Assembly: GCA_016284315.1 (NCBI GenBank)
Contig: JAEEOO010000052.1
Coordinates: forward strand, 1 to 64,000
From: Lachnospiraceae bacterium
GTDB lineage: Bacteria; Bacillota; Clostridia; Lachnospirales; Lachnospiraceae
Direction of reading: 5' to 3'
DNA length: 64,000 bases
Below, in pieces: positions 3,635-37,275 of this stretch. Below the pieces are notes generated by a model. It was not told the DNA's origin, did no database searches, and saw only the letters and a program-made list of their open reading frames with translations. Each line of letters starts with the position of its first letter. Position 1 is the stretch's first letter. A program made the translations under genes and the position numbers.

Positions 3635-4726
3635 TTAGTTCAAAGCATACTCAGTAAGAAGTCTGAGAACGTTCTCTGCTCCGTCGCGGTGGCTTCTCTC
3701 ATATCCGTGGGAAGCGTAAACACCGGCGCCGATAAGTCCATGCTTTATATCGCTTCCGGCTGAAAGAGTAGCTTCTACATCGCTTCCGTAGTGAGGATAA
3801 ATATCTACAGCGTAGTCTGCACCACTTTTCTTCGCAGCTTCCACAAGTCCTTTAACAACGGGATAACTGTAAGGTCCCCCACTGTCCTTTGCGCAGATGG
3901 AAACCTGTCTCTCGGTACATGTAAGTCCGTCGCCGACGCAGCCCATATCAACAGATACCGCCTCCGTTACTCCCTCAGGGACATTAGCACATCCGCCGTG
4001 TCCTACCTCCTCAAATACGGTTACGTGAACATAAAGAGCGCGCCTCGGAACAGCCTTTTCGTCCTTGATATACTTAGCAAGTCCGAGGATGATTCCTACG
4101 CTGAGCTTGTCATCAAGGAAACGTGACTTAATATATCCGCTCTTGGTAACGCGAACATTAGGCTCGAAGCAAACGATATCACCAACGGATATTCCAAGCT
4201 TCTCTGTATCTTCCTTAGTCTTAACATCCTCATCAAGAACAACTTCACAAGTATCCCAGCTTCTCTTTGTGTCATTGTATTCGCCGTTTACATGAATTGA
4301 AGCATTGTTAAGCTGGAAAGTTCCCTCGTAAATACCGTCAAATTTCGTTACAACTCTTACGTTCTCTGTCTCTGCGTTGTTGGGATTCATTCCGCCAAGA
4401 TTAGTAAGTTTAAGTCTTCCGCTCCCCTTGATCTCTGAAACCATTCCGCCGAGGGTATCGGTGTGAGCCTCGATGAGAAGTCCGTTCTTCTTGTCCTTTC
4501 CACCCAATTCAACTATAACGCCGCCCTTGTTGGTAAGAGATGCCTTAAATCCAAGCTTCTCAAACTCTTTCTTAACCCATGCAGCCGCCTCTTCAGTGTA
4601 GCCGGTAGGGGAATCGATATTTAATAGCTCGCAGGTTTTCTCCACAATGAAATCTGTATATTTCTTTAAATTCTTTTTTGTCGCGGTTTTTTCCGCAGTT
4701 TTTTTAACTGTCTTTGTTCCTGCCAT
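3635..4726 (-). CDS. M42 family metallo-aminopeptidase
   Basis: This 363-aa protein belongs to the M42 glutamyl aminopeptidase/endoglucanase-M family, cytoplasmic dinuclear zinc or cobalt peptidases that form large tetrahedral complexes and trim peptides. Landmarks: IDSPTGYTEEA, the metal site EAHTDTLGG, FLDDKLSVG, the catalytic EEVGHGG, VDMG and a C-terminal SHGYERSH metal ligand. An unusual lysine/threonine-rich N-terminal extension (about 20 residues, KKTAEKTATKK) precedes the enzyme and looks disordered. AAAGGAAA precedes ATG 4726. It follows the SLH-like gene by 54 bases on the same strand and may share its transcript, ending at the bidirectional terminator near 3600. Confidence 0.88.
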   Translation of the reverse strand: MAGTKTVKKTAEKTATKKNLKKYTDFIVEKTCELLNIDSPTGYTEEAAAWVKKEFEKLGFKASLTNKGGVIVELGGKDKKNGLLIEAHTDTLGGMVSEIKGSGRLKLTNLGGMNPNNAETENVRVVTKFDGIYEGTFQLNNASIHVNGEYNDTKRSWDTCEVVLDEDVKTKEDTEKLGISVGDIVCFEPNVRVTKSGYIKSRFLDDKLSVGIILGLAKYIKDEKAVPRRALYVHVTVFEEVGHGGCANVPEGVTEAVSVDMGCVGDGLTCTERQVSICAKDSGGPYSYPVVKGLVEAAKKSGADYAVDIYPHYGSDVEATLSAGSDIKHGLIGAGVYASHGYERSHRDGAENVLRLLTEYALN

Positions 4727-33269: not shown

Positions 33270-33310
33270 TCTAAAAGAAAATGATTTGCACAGGAAGCCC
33301 CATGCAAATC
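33270..33310 (-). terminator. Terminator after leuA-araC
   Basis: On the minus strand GATTTGCA and TGCAAATC (plus 33303-33310 and 33283-33290) pair around a 12-base loop, followed by ATTTTCTTTT. It lies between the leuA stop and the PrsA-like start. Confidence 0.65.
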
Positions 33311-33375
33311 ACTATTTTAACTCATTTAATATTAAAAATAAAGTATTTCACAAAAAACTCACATTTGCCGGGAGC

Positions 33376-35382
33376 CTATCCATTCTTCCTGAACTGAAGG
33401 GGAGTCAGGCCGAGAGTCTTCTTAAAGAGCCTGTTGAAATTCTCCACGTTCTCGTATCCGACCTCGGATGCGATGCTCTCAACGCTCATGGTCGTTCCTC
33501 TCAAAAGGTTCTTGGCTCTCTTTAAGCGCTCAGTCTTAACAAGATCCTGGAAGGTCTCTCCGGACTTTTCGCGGATGAACTTGGAAAGATAGGGCTTTGA
33601 TAAATGGAACTCATCAACAAGATGATCCAGAGTAACGTCCTTGTAATGACCCTGAATGTAGCTGATGATCTGGGTTATGCGCTCCTCGCGGCCCTGGGTG
33701 ATGTGCTGCTCGGCAGCAAGTCTGTTGACCGCACTGACAAGAGCTCCGATGGAAGCCTTGATGATATCCTCGTCCACGCCTACGCCCCAGTACATCTTAT
33801 TATTCTGATGAATACCCACGTAAGCTGCAGCTCTTGAACTGGAGCTTCTTGAGATAGCATGCTCCTCATATACAGAAAGCTCGTAATCGATTCCGAAGAG
33901 ATTCTTAACCGCATTACTTACCGCATCCAGACGTCCGTTACCGCCGGCAACGATCTCTCGGCTTACTCCGCCGATCTCTATCGTAAGGTTAGCAACGATT
34001 CCGTTCTCCTGCTTGAAGTGACACTCGGGGATCTTAAATATCGCCTTGGGATTAATGTAGTTCTCCTCAAAGATCTGGTAGATCTCCTTAGGCAAAAGTT
34101 CCTGATGGCGTCTGTCGGACACTCCTTTGATAAGATATCCAACCTCTTCCTGCATGTTCTTGGGAAGCGCGAAACCAAACTGATTCTTGAGGACGAATGC
34201 AACTCCGCCCTTACCGGATGTGGAATTGATACGGATAACATCGGACTCGTACTCTCTTCCAACATCTGCCGGATCGATGGGAAGATAAGGGATATCCCAT
34301 CTCTTGCCGGTCTTTCCTGCATCCTTCCAGGCCATGCCCTTGCTGATGGCATCCTGGTGAGAACCGGAAAATGCAGTGAACACAAGGTCTCCGGCATAGG
34401 GAGTTCTCTCGTGAACACGGAGGTTGGTGAAGTTCTCATACTTCTCGCGGATCTCCATAATGTTTGAAAAATCAAGTCCGCTGTCAACGCCGTGGGTCAT
34501 CATATTGTTGGCAAGGGTAACGATATCAACGTTTCCGGTTCTCTCTCCGTTTCCAAAAAGGGTTCCTTCAACTCTGTCGGCTCCGGCAAGTACGCCAAGC
34601 TCCGCATCTGAAACGCCGGTTCCGCGGTCGTTGTGGGGATGAACGCTGAGAACAACATTGTCCCTGTACTTAAGGTTCTTGCTCATATATTCAATCTGGC
34701 ATGCGAATACATGGGGCATTGCCACCTGCACCGTAGAGGGCAGATTGATGATGGTCTTTCGTTTTTTATTGGGCTTCCAGACATCAAGCACCGCATTGCA
34801 GACTTCCAATGCGTACTCGGGCTCAGTCTGGGAGAAGCTTTCGGGACTGTACTCAAACATGAAGTTTCCTTCGGTCTCGTCAGCCAGCTTCTTTAAAAGC
34901 TTTGCACCGTCAACTGCGATCTTCTTGATCTCTTCCTTATCCTTCTTGAAAACCTGCTCACGCTGTTCAACGGAGGTAGAATTATAAAGATGGATAACAG
35001 CCTTGGGCGCACCCTTAACCGCTTCGAAGGTCTTATTGATGATGTGCTCTCTCGCCTGGGTGAGAACCTGAATGGTGACATCATCGGGGATCATATCCTT
35101 CTCTATAAGAGTTCTGATAAAGGTATATTCGGTATCGGAGGAAGCGGGGAAGCCCACCTCGATCTCCTTGAATCCGATCTTAACAAGCATCTCAAAGAAT
35201 TCAAGCTTCTGCTCAAGGCTCATGGGATCGATAAGGGCCTGGTTTCCGTCCCTCAAGTCAACGCTGCACCAGATAGGTGCCTTGTCTATGGTATCCTTCT
35301 TAACCCAGTCATAGCTTAGTACAGGGGGAAGATGATAGGACTTGATGTACTTCTCACTGTATTTACTCTTTGATTGTGCCAT
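33376..35382 (-). CDS. leuA: 2-isopropylmalate synthase fused to AraC-type DNA-binding domain
   Basis: One uninterrupted 668-codon frame encodes two proteins' worth of domains. Residues 1-559 are a full-length LeuA that would condense acetyl-CoA with 2-oxoisovalerate, the first step of leucine synthesis: CSVDLRDGNQALIDPMS (metal Asp, catalytic Arg), GFKEIEVGFPASSDTE, LSVHPHNDRGTG (metal His pair), LFGNGERTGNVDIVTLA, and the regulatory dimer domain (about 430-559) where leucine binds in the family. Residues 560-668 are a complete AraC/XylS DNA-binding domain with both helix-turn-helix units (LDHLVDEFHLSKPYLSKFI; VESIASEVGYENVENFNRLF) and the closing LTPLQFRK. TAAAGGAGC precedes ATG 35382. It has its own promoter and terminator. 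The DNA targets are unknown; leucine-controlled autoregulation is inference. Confidence 0.93.
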   Translation of the reverse strand: MAQSKSKYSEKYIKSYHLPPVLSYDWVKKDTIDKAPIWCSVDLRDGNQALIDPMSLEQKLEFFEMLVKIGFKEIEVGFPASSDTEYTFIRTLIEKDMIPDDVTIQVLTQAREHIINKTFEAVKGAPKAVIHLYNSTSVEQREQVFKKDKEEIKKIAVDGAKLLKKLADETEGNFMFEYSPESFSQTEPEYALEVCNAVLDVWKPNKKRKTIINLPSTVQVAMPHVFACQIEYMSKNLKYRDNVVLSVHPHNDRGTGVSDAELGVLAGADRVEGTLFGNGERTGNVDIVTLANNMMTHGVDSGLDFSNIMEIREKYENFTNLRVHERTPYAGDLVFTAFSGSHQDAISKGMAWKDAGKTGKRWDIPYLPIDPADVGREYESDVIRINSTSGKGGVAFVLKNQFGFALPKNMQEEVGYLIKGVSDRRHQELLPKEIYQIFEENYINPKAIFKIPECHFKQENGIVANLTIEIGGVSREIVAGGNGRLDAVSNAVKNLFGIDYELSVYEEHAISRSSSSRAAAYVGIHQNNKMYWGVGVDEDIIKASIGALVSAVNRLAAEQHITQGREERITQIISYIQGHYKDVTLDHLVDEFHLSKPYLSKFIREKSGETFQDLVKTERLKRAKNLLRGTTMSVESIASEVGYENVENFNRLFKKTLGLTPLQFRKNG

Positions 35383-35426
35383 TTTAGTGCTCCTTTATAT
35401 ACTGTTTTTAATGTTTTAGTGCGTGT

Positions 35427-35437
35427 TATTTGTAACA
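35427..35437 (+). repeat. Inverted motif, copy downstream of leuA promoter
   Basis: TATTTGTAACA here is the exact reverse complement of the 11-mer at 35537-35547. It lies about 23 bases downstream of the leuA -10 box in the leader. Candidate regulator-binding half of a spaced pair. Confidence 0.45.
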
Positions 35438-35459
35438 GAAATATCAGAAATCATTGTAA

Positions 35460-35488
35460 ATACTATCACTTGCCCGTAGGTATATCAA
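35460..35488 (-). promoter_or_regulatory. Promoter for leuA-araC
   Basis: On the minus strand TTGATA (35488-35483) and TAGTAT (35465-35460) have a 17-base spacer. The leader to the start codon is about 70 bases, with no T-box-like structure and no leucine-rich leader peptide. Confidence 0.65.
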
Positions 35489-35536
35489 GGCTATATTTAA
35501 CTATATTCTTGACTTATTTTAACATAGTAATACCTT

Positions 35537-35547
35537 TGTTACAAATA
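35537..35547 (+). repeat. Inverted motif, copy upstream of leuA promoter
   Basis: TGTTACAAATA, the partner of the 11-mer at 35427-35437, lies about 50 bases upstream of the leuA -35 box. The local context TTTGTTACAAA is itself nearly palindromic. Together the pair brackets the promoter. Confidence 0.45.
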
Positions 35548-35548
35548 C

Positions 35549-35582
35549 AAAAACACGGTAGACAGTTATTCCATCTACCGTG
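35549..35582 (-). terminator. Terminator after aminotransferase gene
   Basis: On the minus strand CACGGTAGA and TCTACCGTG pair around an 11-base loop, followed by TTTTTG (plus 35553-35548), about 30 bases past the aminotransferase stop. Confidence 0.82.
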
Positions 35583-35611
35583 CTTGATATAACTTTATTG
35601 TTTTGAAACCC

Positions 35612-36790
35612 TTATTTCTGCTCGCTTCTCAGTTTTTCTACGAAGATAGCAAATCTTCTCATTGCCTCACGAAGCTTCTCAAGAGAATATGCATAGGAGA
35701 TACGAAGGAAACCTTCTCCGCTGTTTCCGAAAGCCGTTCCGGGAACTGCAGCAACCTTCATCTCTTTAAGGAACCTCTCGGCAAACTCTTCACTGGTCAT
35801 GCCGAATTCCTTGATGCAGGGGAAGATGTAGAAAGCGCCGTAGGGCTCAAACACCTTGACACCCATCTCATTGAACGCATTGAGAAGGAAACGTCTTCTT
35901 CTGTTATATTCCATGCGCATTTCTTCCACATCCTTGTCGCCGTTCTTAAGTGCTTCAACAGCGGCGTACTGGCTGGTGGTGGGTGCGCACATGATGCAAT
36001 ACTGGTGGATCTTGGTCATCTGCTTGATGATGACTTCGGGTCCGCAGGCATATCCAAGTCTCCATCCTGTCATAGCGTAAGCCTTGGAGAAACCGTTGAT
36101 AAGAATGGTCCTCTCCTTCATTCCGGGAAGTGAAGCGATGGAAACATGCTTTTCTTTGTAGGTAAGCTCTGCGTAGATCTCATCGGACATAACATAAAGG
36201 TCGTTCTCGATGATAACGTCGCGGATGGCCTCAAGGTCCTTCTTCTCCATGATGGCACCGGTGGGGTTGTTGGGGAAGGGAAGGATCAGCACCTTGGTCT
36301 TTGGTGTGATGGCTGCTCTTAATTCTTCCGCAGTAAGCCTGAACTCGTTTTCTTCCTTAAGGTCAATGACCACAGGAACGGCTCCCGTGAGAAGAGCGCA
36401 GGGCTCGTAAGAAACATAGCTGGGCTGAGGAATGATGACTTCATCCCCGGGATTACACATTGCGCGAAGTCCGATATCGATTGCCTCTGAACCGCCAACG
36501 GTTACAAGAACTTCTTTTGCAAAGTCATAATCGATCCCCTGACTGCGCTTAATGTAATTACAGATCTCTTTTCTGAGCTCTACAAGACCGGTGTTGGCGG
36601 TGTAGTGGCTCTTACCTTTTTCAAGTGAATAAATACCTTCGTCACGAATGTGCCAGGGAGTATCAAAGTCAGGCTCGCCGACACCGAGTGAGATAACGTC
36701 CTTGTCGTTCATCTCTGTGACTATATCAAAAAATTTTCTGATGCCGGAGGGTTTGATTCCGACGATCACATCTGCTACAGGATTTCTCAT
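35612..36790 (-). CDS. PLP-dependent class I aminotransferase
   Basis: This 392-aa cytoplasmic enzyme is of the aspartate/aromatic aminotransferase fold-type I group. Visible marks: ISLGVGEPDFDTPWHI, TVGGSEAIDIGLRAM, PFPNNPTGAI (substrate-side Asn), DEIYAELTY (PLP-ring Asp/Tyr) and the Schiff-base Lys in INGFSKAYAMTGWRLGYACG. It resembles PatA-like amino-acid aminotransferases; the specificity is unknown. Its ATG overlaps the TGA of the upstream Lrp-type regulator (ATGA), so the regulator probably controls this enzyme according to an amino-acid signal. A strong terminator follows. Confidence 0.92.
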   Translation of the reverse strand: MRNPVADVIVGIKPSGIRKFFDIVTEMNDKDVISLGVGEPDFDTPWHIRDEGIYSLEKGKSHYTANTGLVELRKEICNYIKRSQGIDYDFAKEVLVTVGGSEAIDIGLRAMCNPGDEVIIPQPSYVSYEPCALLTGAVPVVIDLKEENEFRLTAEELRAAITPKTKVLILPFPNNPTGAIMEKKDLEAIRDVIIENDLYVMSDEIYAELTYKEKHVSIASLPGMKERTILINGFSKAYAMTGWRLGYACGPEVIIKQMTKIHQYCIMCAPTTSQYAAVEALKNGDKDVEEMRMEYNRRRRFLLNAFNEMGVKVFEPYGAFYIFPCIKEFGMTSEEFAERFLKEMKVAAVPGTAFGNSGEGFLRISYAYSLEKLREAMRRFAIFVEKLRSEQK

Positions 36791-37275
36791 GGCGTCACAA
36801 TCTCCCTTTCGTCTTCAGTTTTAAGGTTCAAAATCGTACCGTGATCCTTATATTTCTTAAGGATAAAGTGTGTTGCTGTACTGAGCACGGTATCGAGTGT
36901 TGAAAGCTTATCGGATACAAAGCTTGATACTTCTCTCAAGGTTTTTCCTTCGAGAGTAACCAGGAGGTCATAACCACCGGATATAAGGTATACGCTCTGT
37001 ACTTCGGGATATTTGTAGATACGCTCTGCAATGTTGTCAAAGCCCTGACCTCTCTGGGGAGTAACGCGCACTTCGATAAGCGCTGTAACCTTCTCGATGG
37101 AAGTCTTTTCCCAGTTGATCATGGTGTGATAGCCGCAAACGATGCCTTCTTCCTCCATTTTCTGAAGGGCATTGACCACGTCAATTTCCGCGACTCCGAG
37201 GATGACCGCCAGCTCTTTAAGATCGATTCTGCTATTCTTTTCAATAATCGCAAGTAATTCTTCTTCCATTTTCAT
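36787..37275 (-). CDS. Lrp/AsnC family transcriptional regulator
   Basis: The 162-aa regulator has an N-terminal winged HTH (IDLKELAVILGVAEIDVVNALQKMEEEGIV) and a C-terminal RAM effector domain (VTALIEVRVTPQRGQGFDNIAERIYKYPEVQSVYLISGGYDLLVTLEG). Lrp/AsnC proteins form octamers that respond to amino acids. The 4-base overlap with the aminotransferase gene ties the two together as a regulator-enzyme pair. The sequence is slightly longer at the C-terminus than minimal members, ending KTEDEREIVTP. Confidence 0.92.
   Translation of the reverse strand: MKMEEELLAIIEKNSRIDLKELAVILGVAEIDVVNALQKMEEEGIVCGYHTMINWEKTSIEKVTALIEVRVTPQRGQGFDNIAERIYKYPEVQSVYLISGGYDLLVTLEGKTLREVSSFVSDKLSTLDTVLSTATHFILKKYKDHGTILNLKTEDEREIVTP

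Follow-up and report, generated by a model that had tools for sequence, protein, structure and literature searches.

End-product feedback inhibition and gene control usually reside in different molecules, and the locus described here raises the question of whether a single enzyme can carry both. In the window, i.e., the whole 64,000-nt stretch of DNA that was analysed, a single open frame on the minus strand runs from an ATG at 35382 to a stop codon ending at 33376 with no internal stop, and its product joins 2-isopropylmalate synthase (IPMS, LeuA) to an AraC-type tail. By its sequence features, the product has the architecture of a trigger enzyme, an intact enzyme and a DNA-binding domain in one chain. 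This committed-step enzyme appears to carry both feedback inhibition and gene control, a closed one-gene loop that would operate in dozens of Lachnospiraceae genera. A full-text literature search, with most subscription journals outside its scope, returned no description of an IPMS-AraC fusion or of such control of leuA.

Domain architecture of LeuA-AraC

The first-pass annotation, which gave no strand, had described the frame as a full-length LeuA with all catalytic motifs, joined to a complete two-HTH AraC domain. Both parts of this description were borne out: the open frame carries the Pfam domains listed in Table 1, every match exceeding its curated cut-off, and the five catalytic residues are intact. 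The NCBIfam model PRK03739 (2-isopropylmalate synthase) scores 802.7 bits against a cut-off of 455, and the solved structures closest to the LeuA part, by sequence and by fold, are those of M. tuberculosis LeuA (PDB 1sr9, 3fig). In the tail, HTH_18 matches residues 589-666 and HTH_AraC residues 628-666; the closest solved structures by sequence are AraC-family DNA-binding domains, and in the AlphaFold model this part forms seven helices with a block pLDDT of 81-90. Since the overall pTM of the model is 0.56, with a poor catalytic end and hinge and residues 325-392 below 50 pLDDT, its inter-domain geometry was left unused. The AraC part comes after the last helix of the regulatory domain, and the stretch from N553 to R568 counts exactly 16 residues in 112 of the 119 fused or split proteins. 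In the source genome, a metagenome-assembled genome that is 81% complete, LeuA_dimer was matched in one protein only, and the further matches to the fusion were to AraC domains only.

Table 1. Features of the leuA-araC locus, with positions in the window
Feature	Position	Strand	Basis
leuA-araC fusion gene, 668 aa, ATG start	33376..35382	-	ORF reading, Pfam and NCBIfam
IPMS catalytic domain (HMGL-like), residues 36-313	34444..35277	-	Pfam
Post-catalytic domain (IPMS_D2), residues 332-399, includes Y366 (M. tuberculosis LeuA Y410)	34186..34389	-	Pfam and residue mapping
LeuA_dimer, predicted leucine-binding regulatory domain, residues 429-555	33718..34098	-	Pfam; pocket residues mapped
Linker, residues 556-567, length nearly constant	33682..33717	-	Alignment of fused/split proteins
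AraC-type DNA-binding domain, two HTH, residues 568-666	33385..33681	-	Pfam; sequence matches; AlphaFold helices
Ribosome-binding site AAGGAG	35390..35395	-	Read from sequence
Predicted promoter: -35 TTGATA (within second half-site), spacer 17, extended -10 TGA-TAGTAT	35460..35488	-	Consensus match; relatives share geometry
Predicted operator: tandem half-sites TTAAAATaagTCAA + TTAAATAtagCCTTGA, 22 nt start to start	35485..35522	-	Genus conservation; genus model; genome pattern search
Terminator-like hairpin 3' of leuA	33280..33313	-	Hairpin search (3 in region vs 2.0 expected in shuffles)
Terminator-like hairpin of upstream gene, between that gene and leuA	35551..35585	-	Hairpin search

Residues of the window protein were numbered against M. 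tuberculosis LeuA by alignment, with the positions given in PMC2704214. The counterparts of the catalytic residues D81, H285, H287, N321 and H379 named there (D45, H248, H250, N284 and H342 in the window protein) are invariant in all 119 fused or split proteins, and so is Y366, the counterpart of Y410, which the same source describes as required for feedback inhibition (PMC2704214). At the pocket positions listed in that source, the window protein has the M. tuberculosis residue at G481, G483, L485, Y505, A509, A518 and Y366, and differs at three others (V551 to L502, A536 to D486 and A565 to S516). Across the 119 proteins, G481, G483, Y505 and A518 are invariant and L485 almost invariant, and position 509 is alanine in 81 and serine in 36. 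D486 is also found in 25 of 39 unfused relatives, and the divergence of D486 and S516 from the M. tuberculosis residues is common to most of them. Judged by these residues, the LeuA part looks like a complete IPMS with a predicted leucine-binding pocket, and leucine is the most likely signal because the pocket residues listed in the literature are largely kept. LeuA is described as dimeric, with the leucine pockets lying where the regulatory domains meet (PMC11057210).

Conservation, selection and origin of the fusion

At the domain junction (near 33705), where a stop or frameshift would have spoken against the first-pass annotation, the frame is uninterrupted in the window and in 27 of 31 surveyed genomes of the genus, which carry the full-length fusion. 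Elsewhere in the genus, the gene is fused and starts at a contig edge (G006) or is interrupted by a contig end (G028), and G012 has no LeuA match. In G023 (L036), the frame changes at the junction and the AraC frame has no start codon; a real loss or an assembly error is possible there. Conservation in relatives, proposed earlier as a check, extends to the family: in a sample of 299 genomes (298 genera), LeuA was matched in 271, and the match reached the end of the AraC part in at least 68, a lower bound, with all fused proteins among the matches listed (down to 753 bits) scoring above 928 bits. A class sample of 393 genomes contained 144 with a match, 14 of them fused, and three fused genomes (G508, G392 and G510) lay outside the family. 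Fused Lachnospiraceae records found by scanning the contigs of named genomes include Eisenbergiella porci (L067) and the complete genome CE91-St56 (L068); in the same scan, the Burkholderia-group LeuA relatives were unfused. The fusion occurs in the first enzyme of the leucine pathway of many gut and rumen bacteria.

Fused and unfused LeuA copies are found together in G508 and G392, which belong to another family, and in G052 and G138 within the family. The double copies of G508 and G392 suggest that the fusion has been transferred beyond the family.

Omega for the AraC part was between 0 and 0.107 in the 17 own-genus pairs (18 tried) where it was defined, compared with 0.002-0.052 for the catalytic domain and 0.004-0.122 for the regulatory domain, dS being near saturation (near or above 1) in several pairs. 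These ratios indicate strong purifying selection on the AraC part, within the range of both LeuA domains. Relaxed selection on the AraC part in loci with a T-box leader was not seen overall (median profile score 173.8 vs 174.3, p 0.14); low scores were obtained for L175 (112.9) and L176 (132.7).

A 162-row tree built from LeuA alone gathers the fused and split rows, without exception, into a single 131-row clade (SH-aLRT 99), along with 11 rows that lack the domain; fusion status needs at least nine changes over the whole tree. A more careful tree of 80 rows needs at least six and leaves its deepest forks unsettled. A single origin of the fusion would be simplest on the 162-row tree and is not claimed, since the 80-row tree gives no settled deep order.

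A predicted operator upstream of leuA

Alignment of regions upstream of leuA in the genus revealed a conserved tandem element whose end forms a -35-like TTGA. A family-wide 40-nt motif, tATTAAAAaAaATCAAtaAAA.TGATTAAATTTatCacTT, was derived by expectation maximisation from the 250 nt upstream of leuA in 56 fused loci of other genera, with the then-known T-box loci excluded. When 900 nt upstream of one locus per genus were scored in the family sample, 63 of 69 AraC-bearing loci reached 10 bits, a threshold that was chosen after the scores were seen, and most of these loci belonged to the training set. The threshold was reached by none of the 39 loci without the AraC domain (900 nt; top score 4.3) and by none of 153 downstream control regions (top score 1.1); all three split loci carry the operator. 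The held-out test used the 14 fused T-box loci: 13 scored at least 10 bits, the weakest two at 11.5 and 12.0, with sites at -394 to -826, beyond every training window; a pattern search had already anticipated this outcome in eight of 11 such genomes. Over all fused loci without a T-box, 64 of 103 reach 10 bits with the family-wide model; many of the 39 that fall below come from the clade of the window itself, which has a variant form of the element, and four have less than 150 nt upstream. No above-threshold site was detected in L151, L164 and L168 (fused, without a T-box) or in L175 (fused, with a T-box).

Under the family-wide model, the operator of the window itself scores 9.8 bits. When a genus model was trained on 26 loci, with the window's own locus left out, its best place in the 64-kb window was at 35454-35523 (27.1 bits; next best -7.7). 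The training loci exceed 17 bits in 24 of 26 cases, L014 and L020 being the failures. The predicted operator lies inside the region (35383-35560) where footprinting had been proposed from the first reading of the locus.

By these scores, an operator-like tandem repeat co-occurs with the AraC domain and is missing without it. A tree-aware test of domain against operator had only three supported pairs, of which on average 2.9 agree and none disagree (median p 0.25).

T-box leaders in loci with and without the AraC domain

T-box leaders raise expression on starvation. Among loci that lack the AraC domain, 33 of 39 have such a leader (Rfam RF00230) before leuA, vs 14 of 80 loci with the domain. 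The 33 comprise 32 at gathering score and L187 at 89 bits; the 14 comprise 11 at gathering score, L175 at 90.1 bits, and L067 and L068 by sequence motif only, a gathering-level match being absent in L067. The 41 leaders that were placed lie directly upstream of leuA in the same direction, 41-369 nt away. Neither T-box nor operator is present in six of the 39 loci without the domain, and both are kept in 13 loci. The counts imply that the domain brings the operator and that most lineages with the domain have lost the T-box; since 14 fused loci keep it, transcription initiation would not always be the sole control. In one close pair, joined at 100/93 in the 80-row tree, Eisenbergiella L067 with domain, operator and T-box stands beside G137 (L187) with a T-box only. 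An apparent mutual exclusion of T-box and operator was rejected as an artefact of a 350-nt search window, as fused T-box loci hold the operator further upstream (900 nt scored).

A home-made pattern for the specifier detected GAA-CTC (20 loci) or GAA-CTG (8 loci), both with leucine codons, at the expected context in 28 of 47 T-box loci. GAA-CTA was seen in one locus; 15 had no match, and L191, L192 and L216 had only loose, probably spurious ones. Matches to Clostridiales-1 RNA (RF01699) lie between the T-box (or the upstream gene) and leuA in L193, L199 and L225, the last with three tandem copies.

Proposed autoregulation of leuA and its alternatives

The locus had been proposed to encode a trigger enzyme that switches genes directly. 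Conservation of the fusion, selection on the AraC part and an operator-like element that tracks the domain lend support to this proposal; it is narrowed by the finding of the element essentially only at leuA. In our opinion, LeuA-AraC is probably a single-target autoregulatory trigger enzyme, a dimer that would activate leuA from the predicted tandem operator when leucine is scarce. The LeuA part would be a working IPMS that dimerises and binds leucine, taking the place that a dimerising effector domain has in ordinary AraC-family regulators. The two AraC domains of the dimer would bind the two tandem half-sites just upstream of the leuA -10 element, at the place of a class-II activator. With leucine scarce, the dimer on the operator would drive leuA transcription; leucine bound beside the DNA-binding domain would lower both catalysis and transcription. 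DNA binding, activation as opposed to repression, leucine as the signal and the dimer geometry are what we infer here; the sign may be the reverse, and the signal may be a substrate. We lean slightly towards a further view, in which a single allosteric site inhibits the enzyme and, via a rigid linker of fixed length, shuts off its own transcription, and in which the circuit first overlaid the T-box, most lineages losing the RNA switch later.

The predicted operator has a fixed position relative to a -10-like element. TAnnnT starts 20-22 nt past the 40-nt motif in 75 of 81 loci with a site (62 of 68 without a T-box and 13 of 13 with one), whereas 200 shuffles gave 10.2 loci on average and 18 at most; at the commonest offset the hexamer is preceded by TGn. 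The -35 element is poor, with a mean of 2.6 of 6 matches at spacer 17. Assuming a start 7 nt past the -10 element, the operator would span about -73 to -34; an operator that abuts the -35 element and covers such positions is the layout of class-II AraC activators. The combination of a poor -35 with a TGn-extended -10 fits an activator-dependent promoter. A second, weaker operator copy was detected past the -10 element in 22 of 43 loci tested (p 0.01 or less, single-base shuffles); in 14 loci it follows the first site by 33-34 nt, i.e., 73-74 nt start to start, or about seven helical turns. Such a copy would suit repression.

This geometry bears directly on an alternative to which we give a modest chance, namely that LeuA-AraC on the same operator blocks its own promoter, leucine relieving or strengthening the block, as PutA represses put. 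The usual activator layout just described, with the first site upstream of the -10 element, speaks against it, as does the lack of the second copy in most of the other half of the loci; moreover, a T-box, being induced by starvation, would be most simply replaced by an activator. None of these points is decisive, and in favour of repression the site abuts the -35 element, the weaker copy past the -10 is there in 22 loci, and the trigger enzymes PutA and BirA are described as habitually autoregulating negatively (PMC8249747, PMC6978683).

It is unlikely that LeuA-AraC governs a wider branched-chain amino acid regulon through weaker or half sites. The motif pattern, at up to two mismatches, matched exactly once, just upstream of leuA, in 27 of 28 fused genomes and nowhere in the remaining one; because these genomes were picked for good sites, the match at leuA was expected, and the news is the absence of a second one. 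The same pattern gave two stray matches in 28 genomes without the domain, none of them at leuA. A genus pattern matched 11 of 31 genus genomes, once each, and the source genome (81% complete) has one match when a pattern composed from its own site is searched at up to three mismatches. With three mismatches allowed, eight of 11 fused T-box genomes show, 400-830 nt before leuA, a site at 0-2 mismatches; the matches elsewhere in these genomes (14 of 22) were no commoner than those of a reversed control pattern (17). All these searches took the full site at two or three mismatches and would miss weaker sites. An element located essentially only at leuA makes the evidence favour autoregulation rather than control of a wider gene set.

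Quite improbable, in our view, is the possibility that a different regulator binds the operator and that the AraC part of LeuA has another, perhaps structural, role. The genomes do carry further AraC proteins, and the second gene upstream of leuA is Lrp-like. However, the element is absent from all 39 loci without the domain, including 11 within the fused clade, it persists in L189, in which the domain forms a frame by itself, and both its tandem arrangement and its spacing suit a dimer of AraC type. As for an assembly or annotation artefact, the window does come from a metagenome-assembled genome and three relatives have a frame change at the junction, but the conservation of the fusion in independent assemblies of many genera and in named isolates (L067 and L068 among them) rules it out for practical purposes.

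The terminator-like hairpin that follows leuA points to transcription of this gene alone. The two genes immediately before it (35612-37275, same strand) encode an Lrp/AsnC-like regulator and an aminotransferase and share an overlap of 4 nt; a terminator-like hairpin stands between this pair and leuA.

Relation to known systems

PutA has a ribbon-helix-helix DNA-binding fold and is a repressor that its substrate relocates to the membrane. It resembles LeuA-AraC, as proposed here, in being a metabolic enzyme with a built-in DNA-binding domain and single-target autoregulation; as a proline dehydrogenase it is catabolic, whereas LeuA-AraC is biosynthetic and predicted to be end-product-inhibited, and has an AraC domain. 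In E. coli, PutA is described as binding only the putA-putP spacer, and PutA, BirA and NadR are named as trigger enzymes with a built-in DNA-binding domain (PMC8249747). BirA, a group II biotin ligase, likewise combines an enzyme with a helix-turn-helix that controls its own pathway (PMC6978683), but its HTH is N-terminal, its corepressor is a reaction intermediate, its target is the bio operon, and it has no AraC domain.

With AraC/XylS regulators, LeuA-AraC shares a C-terminal two-HTH domain, a dimeric effector domain (predicted here) and tandem repeats by the -35 element. Repeats that adjoin the -35 are the layout of known members of this family, and the half-sites of AraC are spaced by 21 nt, compared with 22-23 nt here. 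The effector domain differs, being a whole enzyme in LeuA-AraC and a cupin or other small sensor in AraC/XylS regulators. The IPMS of M. tuberculosis type (1sr9, 3fig) has the catalytic, linker and regulatory domains in common with the fusion and lacks a DNA-binding domain.

The T-box leader fulfils the same function in relatives that lack the fusion, placing leuA under leucine-responsive control. It reads tRNA charging by RNA structure, whereas the fusion would read leucine or the state of the enzyme by protein. The family may offer a natural test of the replacement of an RNA regulator by a protein regulator, with still-living intermediates under dual control, reversals in which domain and operator are lost together, and split genes. 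It may also offer a leucine sensor ready-made for engineering.

Two of the split genes differ in their arrangement. L189 (G091) has a natural split form: its AraC part occupies a frame of its own at locus-oriented positions 3720-4080, overlapping that of LeuA and equipped with ATG codons, and the leuA operator is intact (39.1 bits). In L196 (G108), the only surveyed genome of its genus, LeuA ends just past an A8 run (TTTAAAAAAAAC) near locus-oriented positions 3756-3792, and the AraC part, which lacks its own start codon, resumes in the -1 frame. This junction may reflect a frameshift, programmed or phase-variable, or else an indel of the assembly.
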